This document shows, piece after piece, positions 5,593-64,000 of a DNA stretch of 64,000 nucleotides. Each line of letters starts with the position of its first letter. The first letter of the stretch is position 1. Both the position numbers and the translations under genes were made by a program. Below the pieces are notes generated by a model that was not told the DNA's origin, searched no databases, and saw nothing but the letters and a program-made list of their open reading frames with translations. This DNA is from Isoetes taiwanensis (Eukaryota > Streptophyta > Lycopodiopsida > Isoetales > Isoetaceae), in NCBI GenBank assembly GCA_021234155.1, contig JAJEKV010000010.1, positions 11,614,359-11,678,358 on the forward strand, written 5' to 3'.

Positions 5593-5635
5593 GTATTTTA
5601 TTTTCCCACACATAGCTAGTCTGGAACTTCCAAAC

Positions 5636-40247: not shown

Positions 40248-40324
40248 TGACCTAAAATGCATAAAACATATAGTAAGTTAGCATATCAAATAACATCTCC
40301 TAGCATATCAAATAACATCTCCCT

Positions 40325-40690
40325 AGCATGAGTTAACCTATAATATATTAACCTATAATAACCTTAAATGTTGTAACCTTAGAAACAACTTTTAAGGTTA
40401 TTATAATTAACAAATTTAGGTTAGAAGTTATTATAGGTTATTATAGGTTAGAAGTTTTAAGGTAGGTTATTATAGGTTAAAAAAGTAAAGGTTAGAAGAA
40501 GTAAGTTTACAACTTTTAGGTTAGAAGTTATAAGGTTAAAATTTCTAACCTTAAATAAATATAACCTTAAAACTTCTAAAACTTAAAACTTCTAAATTCT
40601 AATTCAAACCCTTAAACTTAAAACCTTAACTATTAACTTATAACCTTAAAATATTACCTTAAAATTTCTTATCCTAACATATATAAAAGC
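40325..40690. repeat. AT-rich AACCTTA/TAAGGTT degenerate repeat (P3)
   Basis: Third copy of the tract; begins about 80 bp from the start codon of the minus-strand DUF7869-like gene. Confidence 0.8.
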
Positions 40691-41472
40691 GATTAATGAT
40701 TTTTTGTTTGAAAAAATAGGTTCCTAATATTTCGTCATTTTGAGAAGGGCTCTCCGATTGGACCGCGTTAGTTTTTGGCCATTTTTTTTTTTTTTTTTCT
40801 CCCCCTTATTTTCTTTGTCCTACCCGTGGTGGTAGGTAACTAATTCTTTGCATCCTGTTCCACCATAGCGGAAGCTCAAGCATTGGGGCTAGGAAATTTC
40901 AAGGGCCAAATCCATGCATGTATGCTCACGGTGAGTGCCGGGGACCCGTTTCTTTGTTGGAGCAAAGTCTAGGTACTCGATTGGCAATACGCTTTGAATG
41001 TAGGTTTATATATATTTATACGGAGGCTCGGATCATTACCCGATGTCGGGTGCCTATTACGATGCATAAGGAATCTTTTTAGCTTTGAGGCCAAGGGGAA
41101 ACTATTTGTCTTTGTCTTTGGAAATCTCGTTTAGTTAGTAGAATTTATCGGATAGCATGAGCTTAGCCAAAACAGCTATGTTTCGGCATTGATGGGCTGC
41201 CGGCATAAATTAGAAGAACCCAAATTTAAAATTGAGGTGTCACGAAGGGAAACACTTTCGAAAGGAAGCCGAGTTGTTGGGGCACAAACATGGCCGCACC
41301 CTTAATCTTCAATCTCTAGAAGCTTTTGGTAGTTCAAAAGGTAGTCTAAGGCAGGGGAGCCTGCGAATGATCTTAAACGGCGGTGTATGAAAGCTGGGTT
41401 GCATCAAACAATGTGTTATAAAATCTTCTCCGTTTGCAAGGTCCATGTGAGAAGATGATGAAGAAGCCTAAA

Positions 41473-41690
41473 TGACCCCATTCTGCGAGTTATTCACCGG
41501 AGCTAACAAAGAGAAAAAAGGCTGCTGGTATTGTTCTGAAGGCGATGTTGACCTTTATATGAAGGTATTTCCATTTGTCAATAGCTTTTACGCTATTCAA
41601 GGTTATATTTTGTATGTGCATAACATGTTTTCCTCCCACGAGGCCAGTCGTCACTGATTATATATTGAAGAGTCTTTTTATGCAAGAGAA
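41473..41690 (+). pseudogene. PDR-type ABCG transporter fragment (P3)
   Basis: First exon 41473-41564, second from about 41642. Damage relative to P4 is confined largely to CAG/CTG positions (GCAGAG reads TGCGAG). Confidence 0.65.
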
Positions 41691-42451
41691 AGTCTATTTC
41701 AGTTTTCTTAAGGATAAGTGCTCGCAAACTTGCGGTATTGTGTGCGATCACGGTTTAGAGATTTCTTGGATCACTTGCTTGATTCCGGATCGTTTTCTTG
41801 GCGATTACGAAGAGGCGAGGTGCGAATCGGCGTTACTAACTATGAGGACCACGAAAGCCTTTATTCTACGAGATTAGAGATGGCAAATATTAGAAACCCC
41901 ATTTTTGAGCTCTGGTAGAATATCAGAAATGTCCTCCACTCGGCCGGGAAGAATCTAAATCATCATAATTTGGATGCTCTGCTTTCTGCCTATGGTGCCG
42001 GTGTGGGCGATTTTTGTGCTTAGTACCTTTAAGCTTGGGTGTAAAAGGTACTTGCTTTCCATAAACAATCCACTCACGGATCTTGAGCAAAGGTCGGATC
42101 TTCGAAGCCTAAAAGCGAGGCCCAAAGGCGTGAATCTAATGGGGCATCTTTGGAAGCCCTAAGTGAGGCCCAAGATGTGAATCTGGTGGCTCATCACGGG
42201 AACCAATTGTTAGAACTCCACAAGCTCAAAACAATGGTTCGGTTATGACATTTTTTCCTAGCGGGCATTGCAACCCAGGTAAAAAACCCATTTCTCTAAA
42301 GCATCAAGATGCTCTATACCATCTCCTCTCCTCTATCAAATTTATATACGTGGAAGAGCTGCGGCATCCAGTGCCATTTCTGAGGACTCGTTTTTCAGGT
42401 CTCATCGAGTTTACGAGATTTACGAGATTTTTTGATGCAGGACACACTTAA

Positions 42452-43572
42452 AATGATCGGTCTGGCGGCCGAGTGGGTTCTTCTCCATCGGGGGATGATA
42501 TTTCTGACAAGATTCGGAGTTGCGGGTTTTCTAATTTACCTCTTTATCCTCCTTTGCGTGTGTACGGACTGCATGCTGAAAACTCTTCTGTGTTTGGAAT
42601 TTCTATAGAGTTAGTAAAATTATCAGAGTATGCATGATTGGCTACTAGAATAGTTTGAGCAGAAATCTACCTTTAAGCCCATGCACGGATTCGGATATGC
42701 CTATCTTTGTGGACCACGAGAGCGTTGAACACATTTTGAAGATCAACTTCCAGGAATTATCCTAAGGTATTCATAGTTTACCTCATCATTTTTAGTTTCA
42801 ATTGTGGTCATTTGGGATCTAATTCTAATTGATCTATCAATTAGGGAGAACAATTTCATGAAGTGATGGAGGTTCTTTTAGGTGATGGCATTTTTTAATT
42901 ACGATGGAGAGCTCTAGAGAAGACAAAGGAAAAGCTGCTAGTTTGAATTTGCATCTGAGTTTTGAGAGATTTTAGCACACTTGGTATTAGGAATTATGCT
43001 ATAAAGCTCTCAAGCATTATCATTATCCGTTCAATTGCAAAGAGAAACTACATTTGACATGCGGGTAAGGAGACATTTACCCTAAATCATCTTCAAGTCC
43101 TTATACTAAAAAACTTTGATGCCAATTTCGTGTCTAATGTTAAAATTGACCAAGTCTATGTCAATTTCATCATCTAAGTTTTGTATGAACAATTTACACC
43201 AATCTATTCATCTTATCCTTGATTTGCGGGGACTGTTTATGCATGACCCTAGACTCTATATGCAAGCTTGGATTTGGAGTTGAAATAGGAACTTCTGTCT
43301 CCATCGCTTCGGAGAATCCATTTGCAATTGCATTTGACAATGCAAATGCCATTGTTACCACGGATATTTGTGGACCCTTTACGGAGAATCAAAAGCTATT
43401 TTAACATAAACCGGGAAGCATTACTCCATAAGGTGCAAAAATTGTAGATGAATTCACCTACAAAGTGAGTCGAACAAGAGGCGGTGATTGAAGCAATTAA
43501 AGCCATGTCTACGCATAAAAGTGGAGTCTCGGGAAATAAACTAGGTAGGGGGATATTAAACTTGAAATTATA
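42452..43572 (+). pseudogene. CYP704-family cytochrome P450, N-terminal half (P3)
   Basis: Three exons as in the other copies. Exon 2 keeps the TAG that replaces the Trp codon in DGELWRRQRK, shared with P4. Exon 3 acceptor reads TTTGCGG for TTTGCAG. The C-terminal catalytic half is absent. Confidence 0.75.
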
Positions 43573-44609
43573 TTAGCGAAGGTCATCTAAGGTTGGAGAT
43601 GGAGTAAATGATGCCGGTCTTTGGCAAATCTGATAAGCCATTTTGATTTTCATTCTAACAATATTCTTAGGACTTTGAGCAAATAATCACCTTTTGTAAT
43701 TCCTCTCATCAATAACATTTTTTATAAGCAACTTTAGCATCTATTTGACCTCGGTAGCGGCTTATTATAAGAATCACTTTCGATATCAAAGTTTTAATAT
43801 TCCCAACAAAAATTACCCATGACATGCATTTGCCATCTTGCACTTTGAAATCTAGATGTTTGAAATGCGATATCATGTTAGGGAGGGCGTGTTATGCTTG
43901 TGGTAGATATTAGATATTAGTATGATATCATGTTAGAGGACATGCTAATCAATATGTATTTTGTGACTAAAGAAATCTTTCAATGAGAACTCTAGCATTG
44001 AAATGGCATTTTTCTTAGATAATGTCAATTATTATGCAAACATGTCATTTAAAAGGTCTTCTAAAATACATATGAAACTTCTAATGTGAATTCCACATTT
44101 TGAATCCCATTTTGAGATATACTATAGATTAGGTTGGAATGTTTTTTACCCCAAGTCAAAGGTGACACAAATTCCCTTGCAATGCATTTAGAAAAATGAA
44201 ATGTTGGCGGCCCTCCCTCCACCGGTGCATTCGAAAAAGAAATGTTATGGCCAACCTTAATAGAAATTCTTGTAACTTATAACCTTAACCCCTTGTAATA
44301 AATTTTGGTGGTTATTTATGGCAGTGCAATTTTAAAGTAGTTATTACTTTCAATTTTACACTCCCTTCGAACTTACGGTGCGACTTGAACTTAGAGGCGT
44401 GCTTTTGAACAATCTCTCTACAATCACCGGTGTGAACTTACGGGTGTAAACACAATCTCTCTACAATCTACAAATTACCGGGAGCTTTTAGAGCTTCGGC
44501 GGTGGCTTTTAAATTTCAAAAGCTTTTCGGATTGGCTAAAGCATTTGAGCTTAAACCACGGTAAAGTAATTTTTGAGCCCCGGCTTCCGGCTTTTCGAGT
44601 TTTACGGCT

Positions 44610-44770
44610 CTATGTGGCTTCTACAATCTTACCTTTTTTTCTCTGTGGCTTTTAGAGCTTCTACAATCTTGTTTTTTCTCTGTGGCTTTTCGGCTTCTAC
44701 AATCTTCTGCTTTGGTTTTTCTGCTCAAAGGTTTCTACAAAGCTTTCGGCTCAAAGGTTTCTCGGCTTCT
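44610..44770. repeat. Tandem repeat around GGCTTCTACAATCTT (P3)
   Basis: Third copy of the family at 10063-10300. Confidence 0.7.
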
Positions 44771-45049
44771 TCTCAGCTCAAATCAACTTTTGTTTTCGAC
44801 TTTTGGTTTCGTCTTGAAGGCAAAGGCTCAAATCGAGTCTGAGAAAACAAAAGAGGTTAGTATTTCATGTTCTTTACTTAAAAGTCTGTTATCTTATTCT
44901 TGTTTTATTCTAGTATTTGAGAAGATTACATTTCTATGCTTTATCACATTATATATGAGCTTGAGGGGTTAATCAAAGGGAGTGCTTCTTGGCTTAGACT
45001 TTTAGATGCATGGTCCTATCTTGCCTGACACCTTGATATATAGATCTAT

Positions 45050-45345
45050 TGTTTATAAACATCCTCTATTGCTTATAAACATGTTCTATTGCTTATATGA
45101 TCTTGCTCTATGATTTTGCTCTATCTATTGCTTATAAACATGTTCTATTGCTTGTATGATCTTGCTCTATGATCTTGCTCTATCTGCTCTAAATAATGAA
45201 CCAAAACAATGAACTAAATAATGAACTAAACAAGGAGTATTATTATTATATATCTGCGCTATCTGTTCTTATTCTATCTGCTCTATCTGTTCTATGAGTT
45301 CTTATTCTGCTCTATCTGCTCTTAGATTTGCTCTATCTATTTCCC
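45050..45345. repeat. Short tandem repeats TCTATTGCTTATAAACATG and TATCTGCTC (P3)
   Basis: Best-preserved copy; TATCTGCTC and TATCTGTTC units are intact here and serve as the reference for the corrupted copies at 10.7 and 25.4 kb. Confidence 0.7.
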
Positions 45346-45410
45346 TGGCTTCGTATTCTATTTTTCTGCATTTTTTTTTCTATAGAATGATATGTTAGAA
45401 TGGGCGAAAT

Positions 45411-45580
45411 CGCGCTTGGCGCATTTCTAGTTTGGCTTCTAATTTCCCACTAGGTTAATCAAATCGCGCCAGACGCGTTTCTAGTTTGACCTTTCTATTT
45501 ATACGGCTTTATACAAATCGCGCCAGGCGCGTGTGAAGTAGATCTGTGAAAAAAACAATATAGCAAACGCGCCTGGCGCG
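45411..45580. repeat. Four CGCGCCAGGCGCG-family palindromes upstream of the 124-codon ORF
   Basis: At 45411-45423 (CGCGCTTGGCGCA), 45465-45477 (one mismatch), 45519-45531 (perfect) and 45568-45580 (perfect, CGCGCCTGGCGCG), about 50 bp apart. This is the cleanest cluster in the window. Confidence 0.85.
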
Positions 45581-45669
45581 TTTTGGATTTCCTATATTTA
45601 GAATCATTTTCTGGGGAGAGGAATATCATTTGCTAATTAGTTAATTTCTCTCGTTCTAGTGCATTACAC

Positions 45670-46041
45670 ATGGCTGCTTCTAGTTCAAATATACTTCCTC
45701 TGGACGACCATCAACGCTGGACCCTGTACAAGATACTACTTAATTGTGTTGTTCAAAACATTTAAAGAGAGTTGGACAAGCCATATGACAGTCTGTATCA
45801 GGGGCCATGGAAATGCTACCATCGCATCACTGGACATATGCGGCTCCTCATGCTCTTAGTAAGGCTCATGCCAACAAATAAATACGAGGCTTTGATTAGG
45901 AGTATCAAGGATCGATACAACACTCTGATTTGGAGACTCGACATTCGCAGGGACGAAGAGGATGATGTCATATCAGAATGGTCCAGGTGGGACTTTACTC
46001 GGTATTGGGCCGATGAAGTGGGCCTATGCGACATTTTGTAG
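45670..46041 (+). CDS. Unknown small protein, about 124 codons with one in-frame stop
   Basis: The frame opens with MAASSSNILPLDDHQRWTLY and closes with WADEVGLCDIL before TAG at 46039-46041. One TAA near 45760 (AACATTTAAAGAG) interrupts it; related copies have an extra T or A at this homopolymer, so it may be a sequencing or recent error. The product is mostly helical and charged (IRSIKDRYNTLIWRLDIRRD). No family was recognised. Palindromes flank it on both sides (45411-45580 and 46080-46158), and in P1 and P2 it lies directly upstream of the N block. It may therefore be a first exon or an accessory gene of the lineage-2 element. Confidence 0.5.
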
Positions 46042-46079
46042 AGATGTGTAGAGCAAGCTATGTTAGTTCAGAAAGAACT

Positions 46080-46158
46080 CGCGCTTGGCGCATTTTCACA
46101 AAAGGAAAAATGTACATATATTTCTTTTGAATATAAATACAATCTCGCGCCTGGCGCA
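46080..46158. repeat. Two CGCGCCTGGCGC-family palindromes downstream of the small ORF
   Basis: At 46080-46092 and 46146-46158, each with one or two mismatches to the perfect palindrome. Confidence 0.75.
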
Positions 46159-46346
46159 ATTTTGCAGCTTAAACTTTTAAGTCACGCTTATTTTAATATG
46201 TAGCATAATAACAGGGGGTTTTCTTTGTGTTTTTGTACGCTTTTCACTAAGGTTTTCCTATGATTTCGTGATGTATTCAAATGGATGTACTAATGCGTAC
46301 ATCTAGAGTGCACCATTTCTGAGCCATTGATTTTAGCCTTTTTTTC

Positions 46347-46487
46347 CAATGGTCAACAACCAATGGCTCACAACAAAAGCCCTTTTTTTGTGCGTGTGGT
46401 GCATAATGGTCAACAACCAATGGCTCACAACAAAAGCCCTTTTTTTGTGCATGTGGTGCATAATGGTCAACAACCAATGGCTCACAA
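46347..46487. repeat. Minisatellite, about 62-bp unit, target of the element
   Basis: Two full units and part of a third, containing GGTCAACAACCAATGGCTCA and CAACAAAAGCCCTTTTTTTG, in direct orientation. The array is broken at TCACAA by the left end of the element and resumes after the right end at 54876. Confidence 0.85.
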
Positions 46488-46511
46488 ACAAGATTGCGTA
46501 TTAAACGGGAG
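46488..46511 (+). repeat. Left terminal inverted repeat
   Basis: 24 bp, pairs with 54852-54875 at 21 of 24 positions; mismatches at positions 4, 11 and 12. Confidence 0.85.
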
Positions 46512-46880
46512 CAAATCATTGAAACGAGAGCAAAAGGAATATTCCACAAAGATTCCTTTTTTTTTACGAAAAAGGGGGTAAAATGAGGTTAAAAAAAAAA
46601 AAGATGCATGAAATTCTATTTTGACCCCCCCCCCCGAAATGACTAAATTTTTTTTGCAACGAAGGAATTGACTTTTTTAAAGTGTCACTTTTCTTAGCAA
46701 AAAGAATGTTCTTAAAGTATGTTTTAAAGAGAAACTCTAATTTCAGACTCCCTAAAAAAGAGGATAAAATATTTAACAAAAAAAATTGAAGTAAGTCTCA
46801 GAATTGAAAACGTAGTATTCTCAAAATTTGAAGATAGAATCTTCATATTCACATCAAAATTTACAGTCTTTTTCTAAGAC
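46512..46880. other. Left subterminal region of the element
   Basis: AT-rich with long A and T runs and a C run of about 11 at 46625-46636. No gene; likely 3' untranslated sequence of the DUF7869 gene. Confidence 0.5.
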
Positions 46881-49800
46881 TCAGTTATGTGCAAAAGTGT
46901 GAGGAGTGATGAGAGAGGGATCCAGGACGTCCTCATGTTCATTTATGCCATCGTCATCACCTTCACTTCTTTTTGATCCTTTCGAGGAAGTGCTTGAGTT
47001 ATCTTCCTCATCACTATCACCGCACTTGAAGCAGACGGTGAAGAAGGTATTGTCACCACCTTCTTCATCATCTTCTTCATAATTACAAGTTTTTTTTAAG
47101 CAAATTGATAGTCTTCGCCTGATTGCGTACAAGCGATTGTCGATTTCAATTTAAAATCATAGCACAATATAGTCACGTCATTAAGGTTATTTCGTCCCTA
47201 CAACCCACCTTCTTGGACTTTCTCCCTTTTCCTTGGCTTCTCATTTCTAACTCATATCTACCTTCAAAAGCATTTTCTGAGCGTGTTGCAAGCCAATGAA
47301 TCTTGAGTTTAGTGACTAAGCCTTCCTCCTTGACTGTGTCAAGCACTTTTGCTATCCAGAACGGTCGACCTTTGTCATCCTCCTCAGTCGGAAGAGCAAT
47401 TAGCATACCTTTGGTAATTTTACGTGATATTACCTTGGGGCTCATTCCTGCGTCTTGGTCCGAGGTACATGACTCGGTCCTCCTCGTCTTCTACTTCAGG
47501 TGCAAATGTAGCACTGCTTGGACCTGCTTGGTGCTGGGGTTGATGGAAGGTGTTAGGCCATTGAAATGGTTCTTGCAACTGTCTTAGAGCTATGTTTTGT
47601 ACAACAATTTTCTGTTCGAGAAAGAAATTACTCCACCACATCCGATCTTCTTCTAAGAAGTACTTAAAGCCTGAGGAAATTCCATTTTCAATGGCTTTTA
47701 AGGATGACTCTGGGGTACTTTTCTTCTGCTTGGACTCCTTAGGATTTTTGAGAGGAAGTTGCTCAGCACGTTCTATGAAGGAAGTGTCTGGAATATATTT
47801 AAGGAAGCGTAATCCCTCTGGCGGACTCCAGTCCTTAGTTGTGGTATACTTCTTCCCCTGTAAGAAGCTTTGGCCATCCTTCAAGTAGAACTTGATATGA
47901 TGTTGAAAGGTGAGATCATTCAACTTGTTCTCAGCTTGTTCTCTGTTTGAACGTTGAGAGAAAACAAACTCTCTGAAATCAGCAGTCTCTTTAAGAAGAT
48001 CGACCACTGGAGTAGGAGTGTAAGAATCTTCAATAATTGAACTAAAGAAGGAAGAAAGCCTTCTTCCTTCTAAGGCGCCGTAAAAAATCTTGAACATTTG
48101 GTCAATCTGATCATGAGTGTGGCCTACAAGTAAGAAACCGAGCTTCACTTTTCTAAAGATCCCTAGCTCCACTAACATGGCACAGTACGCAAAGAGTGTT
48201 TGATTCTTGTTCTCCCTTGTAGTATTGTCAAGTTGCAGATAAAGCACTGGTGGTAATTGCTCTTGCTCGCACAGGACCTTGTTAAGAATTGTAATTGTGA
48301 GGTTGGGGTCACCATGCAAGTTTGGATACGTCAAAAAAACTTTGCACCTTAGACTTCCTTTGAAGACCATAGCTCCTACAAGGTGGACCTTAACAAAACA
48401 TTCCTCTGGCACATCTTTAGGAATGTTCAAGAAATGTGGTAGAGTTGTTTTTTTTTTGGTCCATTCCATCAATCACAACAGACATGTATTGCAGTGGACG
48501 TTCAAGAGCTTTTTTTCTATGCTTGGCAAGCTTTCTTCTCTCTGCTGCTTGTTGTTCACGATGTCTGGCAAGGTTTCATTTGCACAATATCTGTAGAAGA
48601 AATCAGGTCAAAGCATTTTCTCTGAAACAAGTGAGAGATTGGAGAACATGAACTTACTTCTTTCGACCTCTGTCTTTGCAGTTTCTCGTTGACTCTTTAA
48701 TTCTGCACACCTCGAGCAAACAGACATTCTATGTTTTCTAGGAATTTTCACAAGACCGAATTCAAGACCACGGTGAAGTGTGAGTAAGAGATGTCTTTGA
48801 AGCTGAGTGCAAGTCTCTTTGTACTCATTAAAACATCTTTTTGGTGATGTTATCAGTTAAAAACGATACATGTTGTTAGGTAGCTTCTCACATGTTTCTC
48901 TAAAATATTTCTCCATCCATGACACAAAGAAGAAGGGCATGCATGGTTACAACTCTTCTTGGTCCACAATGATCATCGATTCTTTGGATTTTTGTCCGAG
49001 TCTTTTGTGTATTCTAGACATTCTTGTGGACCCTAAACGGTGGACAACCATAAAACATTTCCTGCAAACTTCTTGACGGTTAATGTAGTGCAAGAAGGTG
49101 TTATTCTTGGTCCGGTCTTACATGATAAGCTAAGTAGGCATTCAGTGCGCCAATGTCATGGAACTGAAGTTGTCTCTAAGCGCTTCGTAATTTAGCCATG
49201 TTAAGTCTGTTGATGCAACCCAATGAGCAGCATTTAGTTCTCAAAAAGTCTCCTCATTTTGTGTTCATCCATAAGATTTCTTCTTCTTGCAGAGGAGCAA
49301 GCCCTCAAACCAAAATCCACCTTGAATTTCTTTGAAGATTGGCTTGAGAACATGTAATCTCTTTGTTCCTCGTTGGTGTCTTCATCTTCCATGAAACTTC
49401 TACTACTGGGGGTGACTTCCCTCATCGAAAGTGGTGTGCTTGTAGAGGAAAATAGACCACGTGAAGTTGTTCCGAATAGGCGGGGGTACAAGTTGTTAAA
49501 GGGTGGTGATGGCCCATAAGAGGTTGTGGCATCACTGTTCTTGTACCATCTTGAAAAGGAGTTCTTGCAAACATCTCCTTTAGAGCGGACCGAATTCGCA
49601 AATCCATGTGTCACAACCCTTGTTGTGTGAAGAGGAGTGCATAGCCGGAGCTTCGTCCTCATTTGTAGTGAAGTCCCGTGAGAGAAATTGTAGTGAATCT
49701 CACAGTCTTCAGGTTTTCTGTGGTTCCTTGTATGTTTGCAACCAAGGGAGGCTTAAACTACAAAAAGGGGGTAGCTTGTTCTTGAGCACCCTTTGTTGTG

Positions 49801-50110
49801 GAGCTTCTGCAGGTCAGGGGATGGAGCAAAGGGTGGTGGCAGCCCGTCCAACTAGTGGTGATTCTTTGGAAGGAGATGCCGGTGTCGCCTACGTGACTTG
49901 GTGGACGGTTGGAAGGGTGGTGGAAGTCCATTACGTCTTTGGACTTCGGTGTGTCTTCGAGAAGCAAGAACGATGAAGCAGAGGTAGGAGTCCGAGAATT
50001 CCGGTCTTCGGGAGAAAGCGGCGTTGGTCCCAAAGCGTGTCCTCGAGAACGGGACGAGCTTGAGACAACAAAAGGTGGTGGAAGTTTGTTTGACGGCGGT
50101 TTGTCATCTT
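46881..50110 (-). CDS. DUF7869 domain protein, putative transposase of the element
   Basis: The N-terminal part (about 50110-49234) is Ser/Pro-rich and disordered-looking. Next come INRQEVCRKCFMVVHRLG near 49030-49085 and HRMSVCSRCAELKSQRE near 48680-48735 (Cys pairs, zinc-ribbon-like). A 67-bp GTAAGT...CTACAG intron is at 48591-48657. The long core frame 47420-48472 encodes NIPKDVPEECFVKVHLVGAM, QLDNTTRENKNQTLFAY and VGHTHDQIDQMFKIFY, the DUF7869 hallmark. After a one-base shift near 47435, a C-terminal stretch (GRPFWIAKVLDTVKEEG, KIHWLA) resembles the small chromo/BAH-like tail of this family, and an acidic tail follows (46881-47132). D and H/D residues of the hallmark could form an RNase H-like DDE site; that role is inference. 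No full start codon is fixed. Confidence 0.8.
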
Positions 50111-50457
50111 AAGAACTGCAAAATAGTGTAGAGTTTAGATAATGTTTTCATCGCAGAGCTTTTCTTATTCCGAATACAAGCCCGCCTACTAAAAAGTAGA
50201 ACTTCCCGCAACAATTAAGCGAAAGGCAAACTAAAAGCTATTCGAATACACTAGAAGGATAGTAAGGTTAAACGTATTCCACTTCACATAGAAAAAGAGC
50301 AAGACGGAATGGACACCTTTAAAAGGAAATTTTGGCGCCTTGATTTATGTATTCCGTCCTCGAGCTGAAGTCGCCAAAGCGCTTTCTCAATATAATATTG
50401 ACTGTATTCGATACTCATAGAAAACATGGAGAGGTGGTAAGAAAGTACAAGGTACAA
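50111..50457. promoter_or_regulatory. Divergent intergenic region, left part
   Basis: Lies between the 5' ends of the two divergent element genes. Scattered TATTCGAATAC and TATTCC half sites at 50168, 50240, 50273 and 50402. No TATA box assigned with confidence. Confidence 0.4.
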
Positions 50458-50722
50458 TCATTTGTGTGTCCGTTTCATTAGGAATACATTCGCCTTTCGA
50501 AGGGCGAAAGTGTATTCCGAATACGTTAATATTCCCTCGGCGAGAACACACTTTCTTTTTCGAGGGAGGGAAAGTGTATTCCGAATTTTCGTATTCCTAA
50601 TACACTTCGCTTGAGGAAAGAAGGAAAGTGTATTCGAATACACTTCGCCTTGAGGAATATGTAGCCCTAATACACGTTAAGCCTTCCCTCAAAGGCGAAA
50701 AGTGTATTCCGAATACACATTT
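50458..50722. repeat. Array of GTGTATTCCGAATACAC palindromes in the divergent promoter region
   Basis: Best copies: 50510-50524, 50628-50643 (perfect, without central base) and 50702-50718 (perfect 8+1+8). Degraded ones are at 50480, 50574 and 50600. Spacers carry a second inverted sequence (TTCGCCTTTCGAAGGGCGAA at 50489-50508), so the whole array can fold into successive hairpins of about 60-70 bp. Confidence 0.8.
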
Positions 50723-50939
50723 GTGTTTTTTTGTTTTGTAAGTTTGTTTTTCCTTGATTTTTGTAGTGACTTTAGTTGTTTTTTTCGCTTTTAAAACTTG
50801 TTTAGACCTGTTTTTTGTCAAGATTGCAGTGTTGTTTTGGCATTTTTGGTCCTCTTTTTGCCTTGTTTTTTCCTTTTAAAGACATTTTGTATTCGGAATA
50901 GTTTTTTGCCAATCGCTTTCTCTAACAAGATCGTGTTTT

Positions 50940-53900
50940 ACACAATTTATTTGGTAATGCACAAGAAGGCAGAAGAAACAACACAAGAGGACCGTTAAAA
51001 TCCCAACGTAAAACCGCGACCCACGAGAGAAGGGTTGAGGAGACACATGCTACCGCCATCTACTTAAAAACTTTCAAACTCAATGGTTTTTACAAGGGGT
51101 ACTTCGAAAGTACAAAGACACTTACTTTCCTACATGTCCGCAATGGTCTTTGGAGCAAAAGGTACGATGAGAGGGAATTTGTTTGCATGGGCACCATCCA
51201 GTCCGGAGTGAAGTAGCCGGGGAGTCCGCCGGTGAGGGAGATTGTCTTTTCAGACATCCCAAGGCTTTATTCATGTTGATGAATCCTATTTTAGAGTGGT
51301 GAAAGTAAATCCTCGCCCTCTTTACAAGTATGTTGCTCACTACATCAAGAAGAGGTCGCCGCCATCATCAACTATGTTCGCTAATAACGAGTTTAAGACT
51401 TCCCTACAAATGAGTCCGGGAGCCCGAGGAAGAGGATGAGCAAGGAAGCCCGGAAGTTCCTCATCACAATGCAGGAGTCCATCCGCGAGTTCCGGCGAAA
51501 GGCCACCGTCACCACCACCAAAGAAGCGGCCAAGGGACACAATTGCTGCTAAAGAGCCTAAAAAAAAGCAGACGGCCTTAATTGCTGCAGAGGATATTTC
51601 CGAGGAACCTAAGAAGAAGAAGGGGAAGGGTAAAGCACCGGTGTTGCTATAAAAGAAAAAAAAGTTGACAAGACAGCTGAAAAGATGGAAGAGATTAACC
51701 TGCACAAGTTTGTGCAAGGTGTAATTTATTTATGATCACTTCAATGAAGCTTCCACCAAAAATGAAGCTGGTGAAAGGCCACTTCAGGTTCGAAAATTTA
51801 TGCCGATCACTTAAGGAACCTGAAAAGACAGAATAAGGAGCAATCCAAATGCTCACGCGGGCCAATTGTTGTCCTTGTTGGAGGGAAGAGTGCAAAACCC
51901 CCGGGACTATGATAGAGAAAACGCTGGTAGAGACCTACACTCACTACGCCTTGGGAGGCAATCACGCCTTTAAGGCAAGAAGGCAACTTTATAAAGAGAA
52001 GAAGAACCCGAGGTACCTCTCCGTCCCCGCGCTATTTCATCGTGGTCTTCACCGATGAAGAAGCGAAAATCGCTACTTAACACCCACAATGCCGACGACA
52101 ACGAATATAAACTAAAGATGAGCTTAGGTCGACAAGATCCGGTTCATGCATGTGGAGTACGTAATATTCAAGGAAAAGTATGGGTGAGGACTCAAGAAGC
52201 CAACATTTTTTTTGGAGCTTAAGGAGGCTTGTGCTATTGAATGTTGCTTAAAAATATGACGAGGCCAACAAAAGGCGCTCTCATTGGCTGTCATGACAAT
52301 TGGTTCCGATTAGCTTTTAGAGATGGCAAGGTAAGCACAAAATGTATTCGAATAGCAAATCAACTATTTAACGTGAATCTTCTTGAACAGATTTGGGAAC
52401 TCCGTGACCAGATATTTACAATGTTTGGCGAGGGAGTTAAAGAGCAAGGGAAAGGAGACAAACTAAGAAAAAAAATGACGCACGTACCCAAAAAGAAATG
52501 ACCATTACCGCCCTGAGGGAGGAAATGCGGAGCTTCTCACACATTGGAGCTTCTCGGCGACTTCTCCAAAAGTTGTTGATAAGGAGTTTAGCCTAGAAGA
52601 AATGTCAAAGGAATTACACAAGTAAGTTCTCGACACAAACATTAGTTATTGCATGTTAGATTCCCAAAAACATCGGCATTGGCTAGTGTATTCGAAACAC
52701 ATGCCTTTCTTTACGAGGGCAATGTGTATTCCGAATACACATTGCTTGTCTCTAGAAAGGCATTGTGTATTCCTCGAATACACTACATTGCCTTTTGGTG
52801 AAGGAAGGCATGTGTATTCGGAATACACATTGCTCTTCCGAATGTTGGAAGTGTATTCCGAATACACATCGCGTTCCTTTAGAGAAGCAATGTGTTTGTC
52901 CCCAGAGAACTATTTTCGCATATTGTTTCGAGGTAGCATCAAAAGTTAACCGGTTTGTATTCCGAATACAATTAGCTTGACTTGTAAAGATTTTTTTCTT
53001 TTACGTTGCCTTCATTCTTTTCGTTTAAACTCATTGTTTCCTTAACGTGTGCAGCCAAAAACGTCATAACATGTCAAACATGTTTGATGGAGCAACTAAA
53101 CGTCGACACATGGGAAAGGTGCAAGGAACTCTACCCAATTGCCACATCCGACGAGCGCATTGTCCAATATTCACCAAATTTTGAGGGATGGGTAATTACA
53201 CTTAGAATTCCTTCTCTCATAGACAAACGATCTCTTCGCAGGTTGTTGTTTTGTTTTTCTTAGAGCAAAAAGAAAAATAAAGACCTACCAAGAGGGCTTT
53301 ATGAATTTGGTTAGAACAAAGACGGAAGAGAGGTCGTTAGTTGAAAGAAGAACCTTGAGCCGTAACCATCCGATTATGAAAATTACGCATGTTTGATCAA
53401 AACAATTTATATTCAATCATTCATGGTGATTGCACGAATTTGTTGGAACGGTTAAGCCACGGGACTTTACTTTGGTTATTGCTGATCTTCCCTATGGGTT
53501 TAAGCTTAAAGGCCGGCACCGCTCTGACGACCAACCCTTCAAATTTTCAGAGTTTAATGCTTTTATTGAAGGATCAAACAAGATCTCAATGGCCAAACAT
53601 TGGCGTTTAGTTACGTTCCATTCGAGCATGCAATCCGCTTGGTGGAATCCAGCTTTCAAAATCACTTTGGTTCTCCGATTCAGCGGGGATATGAAAAATT
53701 TTGTTTGGTAAGTCTTATTCCTCGAATACAATTACTTTTCTCTTTAATTTTGTTTTAGTGTGTATTCCGTAATAGTATTTCCTTGACTTGTTTTGAAGTG
53801 TTTTCTTGTTTTTGCTAATATCACTTTATATGCTTCACTAGGTACAAAACAAACATCAACTACCATGGTGGAGGACCAAGGTTGCTCAAAGAAGGTAGAG

Positions 53901-54522
53901 TACCTTCATGTAGCTTATTGGAGTTTTGATGGGAAGAGGACCATGGACCACTTTAACACCGGCAAAGATGCCAAATTTTTTTTCAAACGCCCTAGAGTTT
54001 CCAGCAGTCTTACAAAAATTGCAGGACCCAAGTGCACAAGGCAGGATTAGAATCACTACCGTAAAACCACAAAGCTCATCAACCATCTCCCGGACATGTT
54101 TTGGCGCCCGTGAGATTGGGTACTTGATGCTTTCGGCGGTTCCGGGTACTACTATCGCATGTGCACTTAAGAAGGGCCGCAATTGTGTAGCCGTGGATAT
54201 TGATAAGGAGGCCGCGGCATTTTGTGAAGATGAGACCGGCTGCCTTACCTACTTTACTGTGATGAAAATCGAGGAGTTAGGGGCCAAGTCTTCATCCGAT
54301 TATGCTAAACTAACGCCCTCGGAGATACATGCCTCCATTCTCCGCTCACTAGACGATGAGGCAACCTTTGTAGAGCTTAAAGAAGTAGCTTTAGCTACCA
54401 TTCCAGAAGAACAAGGAGGATACAAAACTCAAGTCCCAAGAAAAGGAGCAGATAGAAATCGTATGACGAGATGGCAGAGAGCAAAGAAAAAGAATGAGGA
54501 GGACTATGATGTAGATCTTTGA
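50940..54522 (+). CDS. ParB/sulfiredoxin-like plus beta-class amino-methyltransferase, element gene
   Basis: 5' exons: YLKTFKLNGFYKGYFES near 51059-51110 and YDEREFVCMGTIQSGVK near 51163-51213, then a Lys-rich linker. The ParB-like part has GPIVVLVGGKSAK near 51861-51900 and HYALGGNHAFKARRQLYKE near 51934-51990. Three introns with GT/AG borders follow: 52331-52390, 52622-53054 and 53708-53841. Methyltransferase motif IV is TLVIADLPYGFKL (ADLPYGF at 53481-53501). Motif I is LDAFGGSG plus TTIACALKKGRNC, split by one base at about 54145, followed by VAVDID. IV before I is the beta-class order of N4-cytosine/N6-adenine DNA methyltransferases. Stop TGA at 54520-54522. Frameshifts at about 51230, 53900 and 54145 may be errors. 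The start codon is not fixed. Likely role: modification of element or host DNA (inference). Confidence 0.75.
52686..52976. repeat. Array of GTGTATTCCGAATACAC palindromes inside the 433-bp intron
   Basis: Perfect 17-mers at 52724-52740, 52812-52828 (centre G) and 52851-52867; the first is the core of a 27-bp perfect palindrome (52719-52745). Partial copies at 52687, 52768 and 52958. Spacing is about 40-45 bp or multiples. All are within the intron 52622-53054. Confidence 0.85.
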
Positions 54523-54832
54523 CTCTTGATATTAAAATTATCATTATTTATTACAATGAATCTTCAATATTGATGTACAACAATTTATTGAAAAAACATA
54601 GTACTTTTTTTTTCCTTTCTATTCCGGTGCTTTGTTTTTGTAATGCTTTCAGTCTCTTCAAGTCTATGCCTAAATTTTGCTACTTTTATGATTTGTGTTT
54701 CCTAAGTACAAAGTTTTCGTCTAATAATGGGCCAAAATGGCATGAAAAAAAATGCAAACCTCTAGAAATTCTTAACAACTATCAAAAAAGGCTTATTTTA
54801 GAAACTTCGTGTTTTTTTAAAGGGAATCTTTG

Positions 54833-54860
54833 AAACGGGAGTGATGCAACACTCCCGTTT
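54833..54860. repeat. Right-end hairpin, 11-bp perfect stem
   Basis: AAACGGGAGTG (54833-54843), loop ATGCAA, CACTCCCGTTT (54850-54860). The outer arm is also part of the terminal inverted repeat, so the right end carries a second inverted copy of its own tip. No equivalent hairpin is seen at the left end. Confidence 0.8.
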
Positions 54861-54875
54861 AATTTGCAATCGTGT
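54852..54875 (-). repeat. Right terminal inverted repeat
   Basis: Pairs with 46488-46511; followed by TCACAA at 54876-54881. Confidence 0.85.
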
Positions 54876-54881
54876 TCACAA

Positions 54882-55855
54882 CAAAAGCCCTTTTTTCGTG
54901 CATGTGGTGCATAATGGTCAACAACCAATGGCTCATAACAAAAGCCCTCTTTTTGTGGCCTTGAAGGGCGCATGTAGTGCAGTTTCCCCGCCGGCAACAC
55001 ATTTCTTATCATAACTTTTGATCCAGAGCTCTGTTTGAGATGATTTTTATTGCGTTGGAAAGCTCTCTCCGAGATCTTTTTGATGGTGTATGATATGGAT
55101 ATGTTTGGTTAAGTTATATATGCTAAAACAGCAATTTCTCATATGGTTTGGTAGGTTTTCACATCCTACCGGTTTTTAGACTTGATTGCGCTTATTGGAT
55201 ATCCTTTTTATGGCTCATTGCGAATGAAGCTTGCAAAAATTACCATGCATTTTTAGATTTTGCTTATTATTAAGCAAATTCCACGGCTTCTAGATCCTTG
55301 TGCTAACAATGCAAAAGTTTCCACTTTGGTTTCTCACCACAAGAATCCATGGAGGGCAAAGGCCAATAAGGGGCTCAAAAGTTTTTCTAGTTTTTTTCTG
55401 GGTTTGAATTCTAAAATTTTGTCACATGGGAGACGTCCTAAGGCTTGAGGTATGTTCCCAAATTTTTTTTTTGCAACACAAACCATTAACATCCAACATA
55501 TAAAAATTAAACCCCCAACACTTTTGAACAACCATTGACATTAACAACCAACACATAACTACCATTGACATTAATTAACACAACCATTGGGTCCAACACA
55601 TTTAAATTAAAATCCCCTTAAACCCCCTTTGGTTTGGATGCATATTCCATCGGAAAATTGTGAACATTCTAATACGGCGAGAGCCCTCATAATTGTATTT
55701 TCTAATGCACAAAATCAACACCATATAGTATTCCGCTTGAAATCTTATAGTATTTTGCAAATCTTGTTATACAAAGATAGCAAATTTTGTACTTGCATAC
55801 CCCACAAGCGAGGAACTTTACGCAATGGTGTAGATTAAGGAATAAGGGTGTCGAA
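54882..55855. other. 3' flank of the element (M5), no gene
   Basis: Minisatellite remainder to about 54960, then AT-rich sequence and the AACACATAAC-type short tandem repeats at about 55478-55600, as in M1 and M2. Confidence 0.6.
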
Positions 55856-57799
55856 AACATTGAATCCCTTTGATGCCCTCCACCAATTATGACCAACCCC
55901 AAGAAACTACACATTCTCATTAACCCTTCCTTCATAGTTTCATGGGGTTGATAAGATACACCTAAAGAACATCAAAGAATTCAAAATTCACAACATCATA
56001 GGAGATGTTATGATATATTCTTTTTTTTACTATCCTTATTATACATACCTTTTGATAATTTAAGACCTATAAAATTATAGCATCTTTGTATAAAGGTGCG
56101 TACATACCTTTTAGGCGTTCTTTTGGCCACGCCACAAATGTGCCCACGCTCTCCCGATTGTGTTGCCACGGGATGTCTTCTTGGAAGATTTTTCATGCTT
56201 TCATAGTTGCAATTTATAATGCTCACTTTACGTATTTAGCTTTTTCAAGAGGGACGCCATGGCACTTAGATTCGTGGTCCGGGTCTTGATTTTATATAAT
56301 CCAAAGTCGACGCTTCAAGCATACCGTTAATAGATAGCATTCTTCTCCAGCATGACCATAATTGAAAATATTAAAAGAATGATTTCACATGAGCAGGTCT
56401 AGAAAGAATATAATATGTTTCAAGAACGGTCTTCAAATCCTACTCACCATAGTTCGCCGACATGATAGCTAATAGTCGACTCGACATCCTTGAGGAGGCG
56501 ATCGCTAAGTCGAGGCTACGGGCTGATCACCGAGGAGGCGTCAAGTTGATCAGGCAAGGAGGTGCCCAACCAGGAAGATTTCAATAAGTCGATCGCGGTT
56601 TCTTGAAAAAATTAGGTGGCGAAATGAATACGCTCCACAAATAATGCCACATAGGCGTTTCTTGAAAATAATAAAAATAAATATTCGTGGATGTGATTTT
56701 AATAAGAAAATTAAGTTTTTAATTGAAATGAGCATTTGGATAAGCGGTTAATATAGGTTCAGATAAATTGTAATTTAAAATCGGATAAATGTTCAATTGT
56801 TCGGATAATGCACCCTCAAACATAAATTTGAAGTTGCGTCCCATAACATTGCATTCGAACATTGCAGCGATATGGTGTCCGGAGGATTGGCGCAATGAGA
56901 GGTAGAGGCGAGGGAGAGGCGAGGGGAGAGTCACGACGGGCCAACACTCGAGGAAGTTCCTGAACAGTCGAGAAAAGACTGTGAAGGTGTATTTACTATT
57001 TCTTCTCGATTTCTAAAAATTTTTACGTGTTATTTTTAAGTTTTGTCAAAAAATTGTCTTTTTATCATTTTTCTTTTTCCTTTTGTTATTTCTATTTTTT
57101 ATATTGTTTCGTGTCATTTCTATCGCTTTTACTACCTTGTTTTGTATGTTTTTGTTCTAATCTTCTTCTCTACTCTGTGTTTTTGTTTTTGTTTTATAAT
57201 CTTTCTCCTCGTATTCTCGGTTAAGTATATTGTAGACCCATTTTAATTAGAGTTTCTTGCACTTGTTTGTTTAATAGGAATTTTCGTATTCTCCAGTTCT
57301 TTTCGAAAGTCTTTTTCTAGCCTAGTATGTCTTTTGTAATATAGAGCGCCTGTAGGGCTCTCTTGCATACTTGATTTACTTCGAAAGCACGGCCTCTGTA
57401 GGGCTTGTTGGGATCAAACATCAAGGAGGTAATGGAACATGGACTCGGTTATGCCCCATGTCAGACATTAACCTCAATTTGTACTTGTGATTATGTATAT
57501 AATCTTATGAAATATGTCAAAGCATCCTTATTGCTACTAAGGTTTTTTTTTGTGATGCAAACATGGGGTTTTTAATCCCGGTAGTAATATCGCTTTGCTC
57601 TCTCTCTTTGTACTTGGGTCCCATTTAATTTTGGGTCTCCGTGGACGATAAAATCATATTCTATTCTATTCTATTCTAAAAACATGCGATTTATAATATA
57701 TGACGTCATGAACCCCCGATTGTTTTGGTCATCTCTTGCTACTTTTCTTGTATACCATGCTTGTTTTCCGTAGTAAGGCTTCTATCAAAAGCTTAAGAG
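55856..57799. other. N5 block upstream region, no recognised gene
   Basis: Fifth N upstream copy, with the poly-pyrimidine tract at about 57040-57210 and the ATTCT-tailed insertion. Confidence 0.5.
57364..57677. mobile_element. About 314-bp insertion with ATTCT tail (N5 copy)
   Basis: Same insertion and position as at 3986-4287 and 18650-18952. Confidence 0.5.
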
Positions 57800-58957
57800 T
57801 GATTTCATTACTCACCATATGATTGTAACTTTCGGGATCCTCTAAAAATGTGAAAAGAAAAGCAAAGTTCACAGGTCAAGGGACATCGGCATCGAAAAAC
57901 CAAGAACGGAGGAAAATGTATCTTGTTGCAGATTTGGCACGTTGTAGACCATGGACGATACGACCGAATAATAAAGGCTCGGGTAGAGCCTCCGTGTCCG
58001 TAAGAAGATTTACCGTGAGGGCTCGAATGGTATGTGGAGATCTTCAAGACTAGCTTATAAAGACAGATGTTATGTTCATGTCTAGATTTAAGGAAACAGA
58101 TCAAATGAAGAAACAAGGTATTTCGATCACATGTGAAGAATGGGCGATTCATCCGTTTAGAAATTTGAAGCGGTCGAAAAATAAAAAGTATTGAAGAAGT
58201 TAAATTATCCAAAGGTTCCTTTAAAGAGACAAAACCCTAAGAACGGATGAGGCCGCAGATAACCTCTTCAAATTTGGCTGGTGTGGTGAACCATTGACAA
58301 AAAAATATATGTGAAGGTCTCACCGTGAGAAGAGCAATCAAGACAAGTTTTGATTTAAGAACTAGTGTGTACCTACAAGCTTTAAAAGAGAAGGAAGATG
58401 CAAGTTCTAGAGGCAGGAAACACCCGGACGTTCTAATGACATGATATGACTAGTGATGACGATAAGGCGAGCAGGCGTTAGAGGCCATGAGCAAACTCAA
58501 GAAGTATGGACAAGTATCCACTTGGGCCTTAACTTCATGCATCCAAGTCCATGTCGACGGGCTTTTCAAATCCACGTAAAGGCTATGTTTGTCGCCAGAA
58601 GATATCGACAAGCAAAGACGCAATGGAAATAGTCAACAAAGATGATAGAAAAGAGGTTCAGGGTGCCAATGCCCGCAGATGTGGTGCCTTTTGATATGAA
58701 GACGAAAAAAGGTGTTGATATGGAATAAACTTGAAGATTTAATTGGCAACCGGATATTCACTTCATGATAATAGATGGCCAACATTCAAGACTTTAAAAG
58801 AAGGTTTTGATCATCAAGCACAAAAACTGGAAATCGGTTATTCTATAGACTATACCAAAGCAAAATTGCGGTTCCTCAGTGGCTCAACAACAGCAGCAGA
58901 ATTAGCCGAAATCAGCGCGCTACTGAATGACATGGGAAAGACATTCCTATACAAAAG
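57800..58957 (+). pseudogene. ParB/sulfiredoxin-like coding segment, lineage 2 (copy N5)
   Basis: FMIIDGQH core at 58758-58784 and exon border at 58957 (AAAAG/GTATTT). Followed by degraded CGCGCC-type palindromes at about 59040-59115 and a P block, as in N1 and N3. Many indels. Confidence 0.45.
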
Positions 58958-59209
58958 GTATTTTATTTTCCCACACATAGCTAGTCTGGAACTTCCAAAC
59001 TATGGCCGCCGCGATTTCTTTTTAATGTGCATGTCCTATAATTTGTTCCAAATCGCACCATAGCGTAGCGTTTCCATCCTTACAGTGAAACGCTTAAGAA
59101 GATTCAGCGATTTCTTCATGTGGCATATGTGACCTAAAATGCATAAAAACATATAGTAAGTTAGCATATCCAAATAACATTTCCCTAGCATATCCAAATA
59201 ACATCTCCC

Positions 59210-59578
59210 TAGCATGAGTTAACCTATAATATATTAACCTATAATAACCTTAAATGTTGTAACCTTAGAAACAACTTTTAAGGTTATTATAGGTTAGCAA
59301 TTTTTAGGTTAGAAGTTAATTATAGGTTATTATAGGTTAGAAGTTTTAAGGTAGGTTATTATAGGTTAAAAGTTAAGGTTAGAAGAAGTAAGTTTACAAC
59401 TTTTAAGGTTAGAAGTTATAAGGTTAAAATTTCTAACCTTAAATAAATATAACCTTAAAACTTCTAAAACTTAAAACTTCTAAATTCTAATTCAAACCCT
59501 TAAACTTAAAACCTTAACTATTAACTTATAACCTTAAAATATTACCTTAAAATTTCTTATCCTAACATATATAAAGCA
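59210..59578. repeat. AT-rich AACCTTA/TAAGGTT degenerate repeat (P4)
   Basis: Fourth copy of the tract at 5830-6200. Confidence 0.8.
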
Positions 59579-60377
59579 GTGTGATTTTTTGTTTGAAAAA
59601 ATAGGTTCCTAATATTTCCGTCGCTGAGAAGGGCTCTCCAGTGGACACGTTAGTTTTTGGCCATTTCTGTTTTTTTTTTCTCCCCTTATTTTCTTTGTCC
59701 TACACGTGGTGGTAGGGAACTAGTTGCTGCATCCCTGTTCCACCATAGCCAGAAGCTCCAAGCATTGGGGCTAGGAAATTTCAAGGGCCAAATCCATGCA
59801 TGTCTGCCGCTCTGGGCGGTGCCGCCAGGGCCGTTTCTTTGCTGGAGCAAAGTCTAGGTACTCCAGTGGCAACTTCTGCTTTGAATGTGGGTTTTATATA
59901 TATTTGCTTCTGGAAGCTCAGATCATTGCCGATGTCCCAGGCGCCTATTCTGATGCATAACAGAATCTTTTAGCTTTTGAGGCCAAGGGGAAACTATTTG
60001 TCTTTGTGCTGCTAAATCTCGTTTCAGATTGTAGAATTTATCTGGATAGCAACAGAGCTTAGCCCAAAACAGCTATGTTTCAGCATTGATCAGACTGCAG
60101 ATCGCATCGTAGAAGAACCCAAATTTAAAATTGAGAGTGTACGAAAGGGAAACACTCGAAAGGGAAACAGAGTTGTTGGGCACAAACATGGCCGCACCCT
60201 TAATCTTCAATCTCTAGAAGCTTTTGGTAGTTCAAGAGGTAGTCTAAGGCAGGGAGCCTGCGGAGCGGCAGTCTTAGAAGCGGCAGTGTATGAAACTGGG
60301 TTGCATCAAACAATGTGTTCGCAAAATCTTCTCCGTTAGCAAGGTCCATCAGCAGAAGATGATGAAGAAGCCTAAAT
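59579..60377. other. P4 spacer, weakly coding-looking, not recognised
   Basis: Same as 6201-6987. Open stretches include KIESVRKGN and, in another frame, GHKHGRTLNLQSLEAFGSS near 60178-60235; no family recognised. Confidence 0.3.
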
Positions 60378-60600
60378 GACCCCATTGCAGAGTTATTCTC
60401 GGAGCTAACAAAGAGAGAAAAGGCTGCTGGTATTGTTCCTGAAGCTGATGTTGACCTTTATATGAAGGTATTTCCATTTGTCAATAACTTTTCTGCTATT
60501 CAAGGTTATATTTTGTATGTGCATAACATGTTTTTCCTTCACAGGCCCAGGTCGTCACAGATTATATATTGAAGAGTCTTTTATGCAAGAAAGTCTATTT
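60378..60600 (+). pseudogene. PDR-type ABCG transporter fragment (P4, best copy)
   Basis: Exon 60378-60467 encodes DPIAELFSELTKREKAAGIV then PEADVDLYMK. The intron is 60468-60544. The next exon encodes AQVVTDYILKSLLC from 60545. Same reasoning as for P1; only this short inter-motif stretch of the first nucleotide-binding domain is present. Confidence 0.8.
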
Positions 60601-61352
60601 CAGTTTTCTTAAGGATAAGTGCTCTGCAAACTTCACGGTATTGTGCCGATCCTGGTTTCCGAGATTTCTTGGATCACCGCCAGTTTCGGATCGTTTCTTA
60701 GGCGATTACGAAAGGGCAGGGTGCAGATCCGACGTTACTAACTATGAGGACCCTGAAAGCCTTTGTTACGAGATTAGAGATGGCAAATATTAGAAAACCC
60801 CTGTTTTGAGCTCTGGCCGAATATCAGAAATGTCCTCCCTGCTCGGCCAGAAGAATCTAAATCATCATAATTTGGATGCTCTGCTCTGCCTATGGTGCCA
60901 GCTGTGGGCGATTTTGTGCTTAGTACCTTTAAGCTTGGGTGTAAAAGGTACTTGCTCTGCAAGCAATCCCTGCTCTGGATCTTGAGCAAGGTCAGATGTC
61001 GAAGCCTAAGCGAGGCCCAAGCTGTGAATCTAATGGGGCATGCTGGAAGCCCTAAGTGAGGCCCAAGATGTGAATCTGGTGGCTCATGCAGGAACCCAGA
61101 TTGTTAGAACTCCACAAGCTCAAAACAATGGTTCGGTTATGACATTTTTCCTAACGGGCATTGCAACCAGGTAAAAAACCCATTTCTCTAAAGCATCAAG
61201 ATGCTCTATACCATCTCCTCTCCTCTATCAAATTTATGTCTGTGGAAGAGCCGCTGCAGCATCCCAGTGCCATTTCTGAGGACTCTGTTTTTCAGTCTCA
61301 TCAGAGTTTCTGAGATTTCTGAGATTTTTTTGGTCTGAGACCTGCACTTAAA

Positions 61353-62484: not shown

Positions 62485-62498
62485 ACTGAAGGTCATCT

Positions 62499-62543
62499 AA
62501 GGTTGGAGATGGAGTAAATGATGCCCCGGTGCTGGCAAATGCA
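62499..62543 (+). other. P-type ATPase-like motif KVGDGVNDAPVLANA
   Basis: Fifteen codons read KVGDGVNDAPVLANA, containing the GDGVNDAP hinge signature of P-type ATPases, directly before GTAAGC (splice-donor-like). No surrounding ATPase sequence was recognised. Corresponding positions in P1-P3 carry the same reading up to damaged bases. It may be a third captured exon scrap or a coincidence. Confidence 0.3.
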
Positions 62544-63536: not shown

Positions 63537-63680
63537 ATGTGGCTTCTACAATCTTACGCTTTTCTCTCGTGGCTTTTCGGGCTTCTACAATCTTATGTTT
63601 TTCTCCGCGGGCTTTCGGGCTTCTACAATCTTCTGCTTTGGTTTTTCTGCTCAAAGGTTTCTACAAAGCTTTCGGCTCAA
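63537..63680. repeat. Tandem repeat around GGCTTCTACAATCTT (P4)
   Basis: Fourth copy of the family at 10063-10300. Confidence 0.7.
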
Positions 63681-63959: not shown

Positions 63960-64000
63960 GATATATAGATCTATTGTTTATAAACATCCTCTATTGCTTA
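63960..64000. repeat. Start of the TCTATTGCTTATAAACATG repeats (P4), cut by the window end
   Basis: Matches 10513 onward; the array clearly continues beyond the window. Confidence 0.6.

Follow-up and report, generated by a model that had tools for sequence, protein, structure and literature searches.

A decayed, probably Sola-like DUF7869 transposon of Isoetes taiwanensis with a divergent ParB-like methyltransferase gene and palindrome arrays

The window, meaning the whole 64-kb stretch of Isoetes taiwanensis DNA analysed here, contains a DNA transposon with terminal inverted repeats (TIRs) at positions 46487–54876 (8390 bp). The left TIR (AACAAGATTGCG..., 46487–46511, plus strand) and the right TIR (54852–54876, minus strand) are 25 nt long and complementary at 22/25 positions (88%). 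The element is flanked on both sides by CACA (46483–46486 and 54877–54880), a 4-bp target site duplication (TSD) recognised from the sequence and from the flanks of other copies. The insertion target is a 57-bp minisatellite (46348–46487, 2.5 copies). Joining the flanks without the element and one CACA gives a sequence matching the neighbouring minisatellite unit at 78/80 bases, which bears out the empty site reconstructed in the initial annotation of this DNA. Two divergent genes lie inside, as that annotation also described, each stopping about 0.35–0.4 kb short of a terminus (the DUF7869 gene near 46881, the methyltransferase gene near 54522); both are frame-broken in the window copy.

Further copies were sought in the 1.658-Gb assembly (1110 contigs). 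When each end was used as a DNA query, 40 matches were listed from 1545 and 1348 first-look candidates, and among the matches listed most start or stop within a few bases of the element ends. Nine full copies of this family (family A, window included) are 90.5–95.1% alike. Another 20 copies were cut out at the left and the right; 17 of them yielded both ends, and for the other three no right end was found in the stretch cut. Left ends begin with AACAA, with minor differences beyond, and right ends are TGTT in all nine full copies and all 17 further two-ended copies; one of the latter, L040/L041, has somewhat different terminal repeats with unchanged end type and TSD. An exact 4-bp TSD is present in 9/9 full copies and 16/17 further copies (three of four bases agree in the remaining one), and none of 272 mismatched flank pairs used as a control agreed. 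The copies thus conform to the constant ends and constant TSD length that had been proposed as a check. The initial annotation had placed a TIR transposon at 46482–54881, with 24-bp repeats (21/24) and a 6-bp flank, TCACAA. The transposon and its inverted repeats stand, with the bounds and lengths given above; the 6-bp duplication is ruled out and replaced by CACA, because copies elsewhere duplicate exactly 4 bp. The locus is almost certainly a transposon, and the window element is an old and decayed member of a TIR transposon family that moves by cut-and-paste and is present in high copy number.

The first gene (46881–50108, minus strand) encodes a DUF7869 protein and is delimited by open reading frames (ORFs) and by tblastn with sister proteins, which covers pieces of 46881–49425; its low-complexity N-terminal part extends to about 50108. 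The DUF7869 domain (PF25273) passes the Pfam cutoff with E 1.4e-43, as the initial call of this domain would lead one to expect, and spans 47843–48406 on the minus strand, as computed from the residue numbers of the match. This span includes the LDN and HTHDQID motifs, and IDGMDQ, read from the sequence, lies just upstream in another frame (about 48470–48500). The motifs IDGMDQ, QLDN and HTHDQID carry an aspartate pattern D-80-D-39-D, whose three residues are kept in 22/26, 26/28 and 22/28 alignment rows, decayed copies counted. The ratio of nonsynonymous to synonymous change (dN/dS) is 0.10 when the sister locus L016 is compared with L006, which is the best preserved copy of family A; four other family-A copies give 0.18–0.24 against L016. 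Within families it is 0.43–0.84, as in decaying copies. Some estimates are uneven, synonymous change (dS) between L009 and L010 ranging from 0.02 to 0.44 by segment, of which frame breaks may be the cause. No other Pfam model was matched above its cutoff in two of the ORF scans. Relatives of DUF7869 were not found in viral contigs, prokaryote genomes, phages or PDB at the thresholds applied, and no mention of DUF7869 was found in the accessible open-licence PubMed Central (PMC) literature. The conserved aspartates, the purifying selection and the position as the only other gene recognised suggest that DUF7869 is very probably the transposase, in line with what had been proposed for it.

Elsewhere in the window (38225–38969, minus strand) lies a much diverged, stop-interrupted DUF7869 relic with an LDN motif. 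In one of its two alignments the third motif reads YHEDVD, with E in the third position, and neither a methyltransferase match nor a GTAT-N5/6-ATAC array was found nearby.

The second gene lies on the plus strand. Its ParB-like part (51094–52336, frame-broken) was located by tblastn with the L016 protein and by ParB similarity. A middle exon with approximate limits (53058–53193, within the ORF 52988–53263) has a counterpart (MT_d) in 6/10 sister loci, at 35–66% identity. The next exon (53295–53711), supported by ORFs, sister exons and tblastn, carries methyltransferase motif IV as DLPYGF in the window and as DIPYGF in L009, L012 and L016. The exon of the S-adenosylmethionine (AdoMet)-binding region (53840–54522) is frame-broken in the window and was placed by ORFs and tblastn, with PF01555 matched in sister copies. 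At E up to 1, Pfam gave nothing for the window methyltransferase ORFs, whereas the last exon passes the PF01555 cutoff in both sister copies scanned (L012, E 2e-15; L009, E 5.4e-15), so that the methyltransferase reading of the initial annotation holds through the sisters rather than through the window. The best PDB matches are MboIIA (2e-10), RsrI (4e-9) and CcrM (9e-7), with a weak match to PvuII (E 0.0036). In L009 and L012 the motif IV exon (DIPYGF) precedes the motif I exon (DAFSGSGTT). Motif IV ahead of the AdoMet-binding motif I is the order of beta-class amino-methyltransferases. As read from its sequence, the second gene is therefore taken to encode a beta-class amino-methyltransferase with a ParB-like part, and the two parts would form one spliced protein.

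The ParB-like nature of the N-terminal part is held with moderate confidence. The NCBIfam ParB model matches L016 at E 0.0021, far below the model cutoff, this being one of the two sequences scanned (no match in L009). The ParB-like part matches 14 plasmid records at E 0.1–9; 11 of them bear the annotation ParB family protein, two encode other proteins and one lacks annotation. When four of these were used in a profile comparison, P was 1.2e-4 but the probability only 55%; this P is not independent, because the four proteins were picked by similarity, and it comes without an unrelated control profile. A Pfam scan of sister exons gave no ParB match, and PDB no meaningful match to the ParB-like part. 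The earlier ParB-like assignment thus survives through similarity to the ParB model and to plasmid ParB proteins, and is weak by sequence.

The same gene pair recurs in sister families. A PF25273 profile search of the genome turned up 9909 first-look candidates, from which 150 matches were scored, and no match was found in 14 control genomes. Ten DUF7869 loci were taken from the first 71 places of the list, partly for long ORFs and therefore non-randomly. Five of them (L009, L010, L012, L016 and L018) have AACA...TGTT ends, an exact 4-bp TSD and both genes in divergent orientation within 7978–9568 bp. At L017 both genes are present and the right end was not found, and no right end was located for F11, F13, F14, F15 and F17; relaxed searches and longer stretches recovered two ends missed at first. 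In tblastn pieces, the identity of the DUF7869 core to family A is 50–72% for eight loci and 91–92% for L015 and L016, and the sister methyltransferase exons are 27–70% identical to family A. The recurrence of a ParB-like methyltransferase beside DUF7869 agrees with its earlier description as an accessory of the element. Ends lying elsewhere, or missing TSDs at other loci, had been named as evidence to the contrary; the copies and the five complete sisters share the end type and 4-bp TSDs.

Between L016 and L006, the DUF7869 half has 75.8% DNA identity with dS 0.94, and the ParB and methyltransferase half 62–71% with saturated dS. The closer DUF7869 half may reflect module exchange or faster evolution of the ParB and methyltransferase parts, and frame breaks in L006 could inflate the contrast.

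Association of the two genes was measured with the best 150 PF25273 and the best 150 PF01555 matches against 500 crude random placements within contigs. Within 15 kb there are 24 DUF7869–PF01555 pairs, 22 of them divergent, compared with a random mean of 0.54 and a maximum of 4. From the methyltransferase side, 15 matches were sampled (ranks 5, 15, ... 145 of the 150 listed), two of them already among the 24 pairs; ten have DUF7869 in a 3-kb stretch 4.2–7.2 kb away, in nine cases divergently. The gene pair is strongly associated and non-random, yet not universal. The initial annotation had counted genes found mostly apart against its own proposal, and these tests did not refute it in that way. 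One sampled methyltransferase locus, L077, differs from the others in its arrangement: it has seven palindrome sites, and its DUF7869 piece lies on the same strand.

Two arrays of the palindrome GTAT-N5/6-ATAC are present in the window element. Array 1 (50512–50716) lies between the two divergent genes, with sites at 50512, 50591 (an imperfect palindrome) and 50704. Array 2 (52726–52969; sites at 52726, 52814, 52853 and 52957) lies between methyltransferase exons, and these array-bearing gaps between exons would be introns. The 55.6 kb of the window outside the element contain one site. All 15 elements scanned (the nine family-A copies, L016, L012, L018, L009, L010 and, from the left end on, L017) have such sites, 4–26 each, where first-order shuffles average no more than 0.25. 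Family A has 7–10 sites per element, L016 has 4, family B 21–26 and family C 9–10, and the commonest spacer differs by family: TCCGGA in family A and L016, AAATTT in B and GAATTC in C. Comparison of positions places one cluster between the two genes and the others between methyltransferase exons; nearly all sites lie 3.5–7.5 kb from the left end and are not terminal, the exceptions being single sites in L010, L012 and L018. Among the arms of 4+6+4 palindromes GTAT is the commonest, with 130 occurrences against 44 for the next. Helical phasing of the sites at 10.5 bp is moderate (resultant 0.38–0.50), too modest for a claim.

The 18-bp family-B version of the palindrome occurs 4415 times genome-wide, and a control with its letters reversed, also a palindrome, does not occur. 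Five clusters were taken from the head of this list, bypassing the single site C7 and the cluster C16, which lies 2 kb from a DUF7869 match. Four of the five adjoin DUF7869 or ParB-methyltransferase coding sequence, strongly at L091 and L093, as a short DUF7869 piece at L094 (E 2e-9) and weakly at L090 (E 8e-6). Thirteen of the 15 sampled stretches L075–L089 lack sites, a mostly uninformative count since the cut covers mainly the DUF7869 core. The arrays look like parS-like binding sites or methylation sites.

EnSpm/CACTA elements have 3-bp TSDs and CACTA-type ends, hAT elements 8-bp TSDs and PIF/Harbinger elements 3-bp TSDs. EnSpm/CACTA is excluded by the 4-bp TSD and the AACA...TGTT ends. 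The 4-bp TSD and the absence, in two of the ORF scans, of any over-cutoff Pfam match besides DUF7869 also exclude hAT, MULE, PIF/Harbinger and Tc1/mariner. Ginger is excluded by the lack of an over-cutoff integrase match in the ORFs scanned; matches of this kind stayed below the cutoff and count as noise, for example gag_pre-integrs with E 0.13. MULEs have TSDs of 7–12 bp and Tc1/mariner of 2 bp, and Ginger elements have a Gypsy-like integrase (PMC10741241).

Comparisons with published systems draw on the accessible parts of the articles cited. The element is probably Sola-like (Sola-1), since the Sola superfamily is defined by a DDD transposase and TSDs of 4 bp (PMC10741241). Sola elements are reported from the moss Physcomitrella (PMC10741241) and are mostly 2–9 kb long, with variable termini (PMC10741241, PMC9033089). 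The 4-bp TSD is found here in 9/9 full copies, 16/17 further copies and five of the ten sisters, the ends of the other five not having been found. The conserved aspartates at D-80-D-39-D may be those of a DDD transposase. The accessible parts of both sources mention neither a ParB-methyltransferase nor arrays. The precedent for the gene pair is Sola1-1_Ec32 of the brown alga Ectocarpus, in which a ParB-like protein with an N4/N6 methyltransferase is encoded on the strand opposite the transposase; proteins of this sort, it was proposed, may bind the transposon that encodes them and modify it (PMC12477816, 2025). The beta-class N4/N6 enzyme predicted here has the same opposite-strand placement. 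Sola1-1_Ec32 differs in its length and host (21.5 kb in a brown alga, as opposed to 8.4 kb in a vascular plant), and arrays are not described for it in the part of the article available.

The same article cites Iyer et al. 2011 and Petroll et al. 2025 for ParB-methyltransferases in transposons of green and red algae; these too would be accessory genes of eukaryotic DNA transposons, in other hosts and possibly other superfamilies (PMC12477816). Phages frequently carry fusions of ParB and an N6_N4 methyltransferase, which join a ParB-CTPase fold and an amino-methyltransferase on mobile DNA (PMC12704722), an arrangement that the gene described here would share. They are prokaryotic, however, and among the 20 phage matches listed the C-terminal exon is 28–33% identical. 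The initial annotation knew of no described plant transposon with this gene pair; the pair has a precedent, in a brown alga. The gene pair and, probably, the superfamily are already known; within the accessible open-licence PMC literature, in which no description of such palindrome arrays was found, the new points are the occurrence at high copy in a vascular plant, the existence of several sister families, and the arrays.

Taken as a whole, the best explanation, a Sola-type transposon with a DUF7869 transposase and a self-marking ParB-methyltransferase, is likely. DUF7869 would act as an RNase H-like DDD/E transposase that cuts the AACA...TGTT ends and inserts them with a 4-bp stagger, its fold and catalysis being predicted. 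The divergent gene would provide a ParB-like beta-class amino-methyltransferase retained over a long element history, because it recurs in diverged sister families. This enzyme would most likely locate the element through its own GTAT-N6-ATAC arrays and then methylate element DNA there, and such methylation could control the promoters, work against silencing by the host or label the donor copy for transposition. Methylation of the element by its own enzyme is an evenly balanced proposition, and the use of the arrays as binding or target sites of this enzyme is a tentative one, slightly short of even. A more specific version is rather unlikely: the arrays as a parS-like, centromere-like address on which the ParB-like methyltransferase loads and from which it spreads a mark, on adenine N6 or cytosine N4, that stays confined to the element.

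The arrays could instead bind the transposase or a transcription factor of host or element at a bidirectional promoter, with the methyltransferase having a general and unrelated target. This is a serious though lesser possibility, consistent with the location of array 1 between the divergent genes. It stays viable because F11 and F13, which have no detectable methyltransferase, keep five and three sites beside the DUF7869 gene; both carry family-B left ends and sites, however, and may therefore be truncated elements that formerly had a methyltransferase. The further arrays between methyltransferase exons, and the position of nearly all sites well inside the element, also fit a promoter operator poorly. 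It is very improbable that the methyltransferase was captured from a bacterium or phage and is carried along without serving the element. Phages commonly carry such enzymes: the C-terminal exon matches 122 phage records and two viral contigs, the one phage match inspected being annotated as a plain DNA methyltransferase, and the phage fusions cited above point the same way (PMC12704722). Decay would be the expected fate of a passenger without a use, whereas this gene recurs with the same orientation and exon order in synonymous-saturated sister families. Hardly more probable is that DUF7869 is a second accessory and the true transposase is undetected or supplied in trans. An RNase H fold was not demonstrated: a DUF7869 profile search of PDB gave nothing at E up to 10, and a single-sequence AlphaFold2 model of the window ORF was unusable (predicted local distance difference test score, pLDDT, 35). 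Nevertheless, the complete elements contain no other recognised gene besides DUF7869 and the methyltransferase. DUF7869 retains three acidic residues, spaced much as in DDE enzymes, and the comparison with the best preserved copy indicates purifying selection on it between subfamilies.

Besides these structure searches, several observations weigh against a self-marking transposon with DUF7869 as its transposase. In the nine full copies of family A no open frame exceeds 350 residues, compared with 857 in L016 and 987 in L015, so that all nine look frame-broken. Some of the breaks may be assembly errors, because the assembly is Nanopore-based, though Illumina-polished (PMC8566536). Frame breaks disturb the dN/dS estimates, and for the methyltransferase, whose synonymous change is saturated between subfamilies, dN/dS is not computable. 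The AdoMet motif is in frame only in L009 and L012. The ParB likeness rests on weak scores, searches with this part having given nothing in phages and no confirmed relative in viral contigs. Two of the ten DUF7869 loci (L011 and L013) have no methyltransferase found within about 17 kb, and two (L014 and L015) hold only a piece of one. For five of the 15 sampled methyltransferases no DUF7869 was found in the 3-kb stretch cut, and rough first-look candidates number 9909 for DUF7869 against 1444 for PF01555, DUF7869 being the commoner partner. L092, an array of seven palindrome sites, has no recognisable element coding in 3.6 kb and is possibly an array-only derivative.

If self-marking through the arrays is true, a bacterial partition module would have been recast as a system of self-recognition and epigenetic marking in a vascular plant. 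A plant transposon encoding an amino-methyltransferase bears on whether N6-methyladenine (6mA) or N4-methylcytosine (4mC) plays any real part in plants, and on how transposons distinguish their own DNA from that of the host. The arrays would constitute a concrete DNA address, so the published idea that such enzymes bind and modify the transposon encoding them (PMC12477816) can be put to a direct test, in part on the Nanopore reads of the assembly.

Large segments of the window (1–11000, 15773–25704, 40248–46201 and 53295–64000) are mutually repeated at 85–89% identity. The right end of the transposon is found again at about 1–1570 and at 15773–16240, within these repeated segments, and the insertion was therefore probably duplicated together with its flank.

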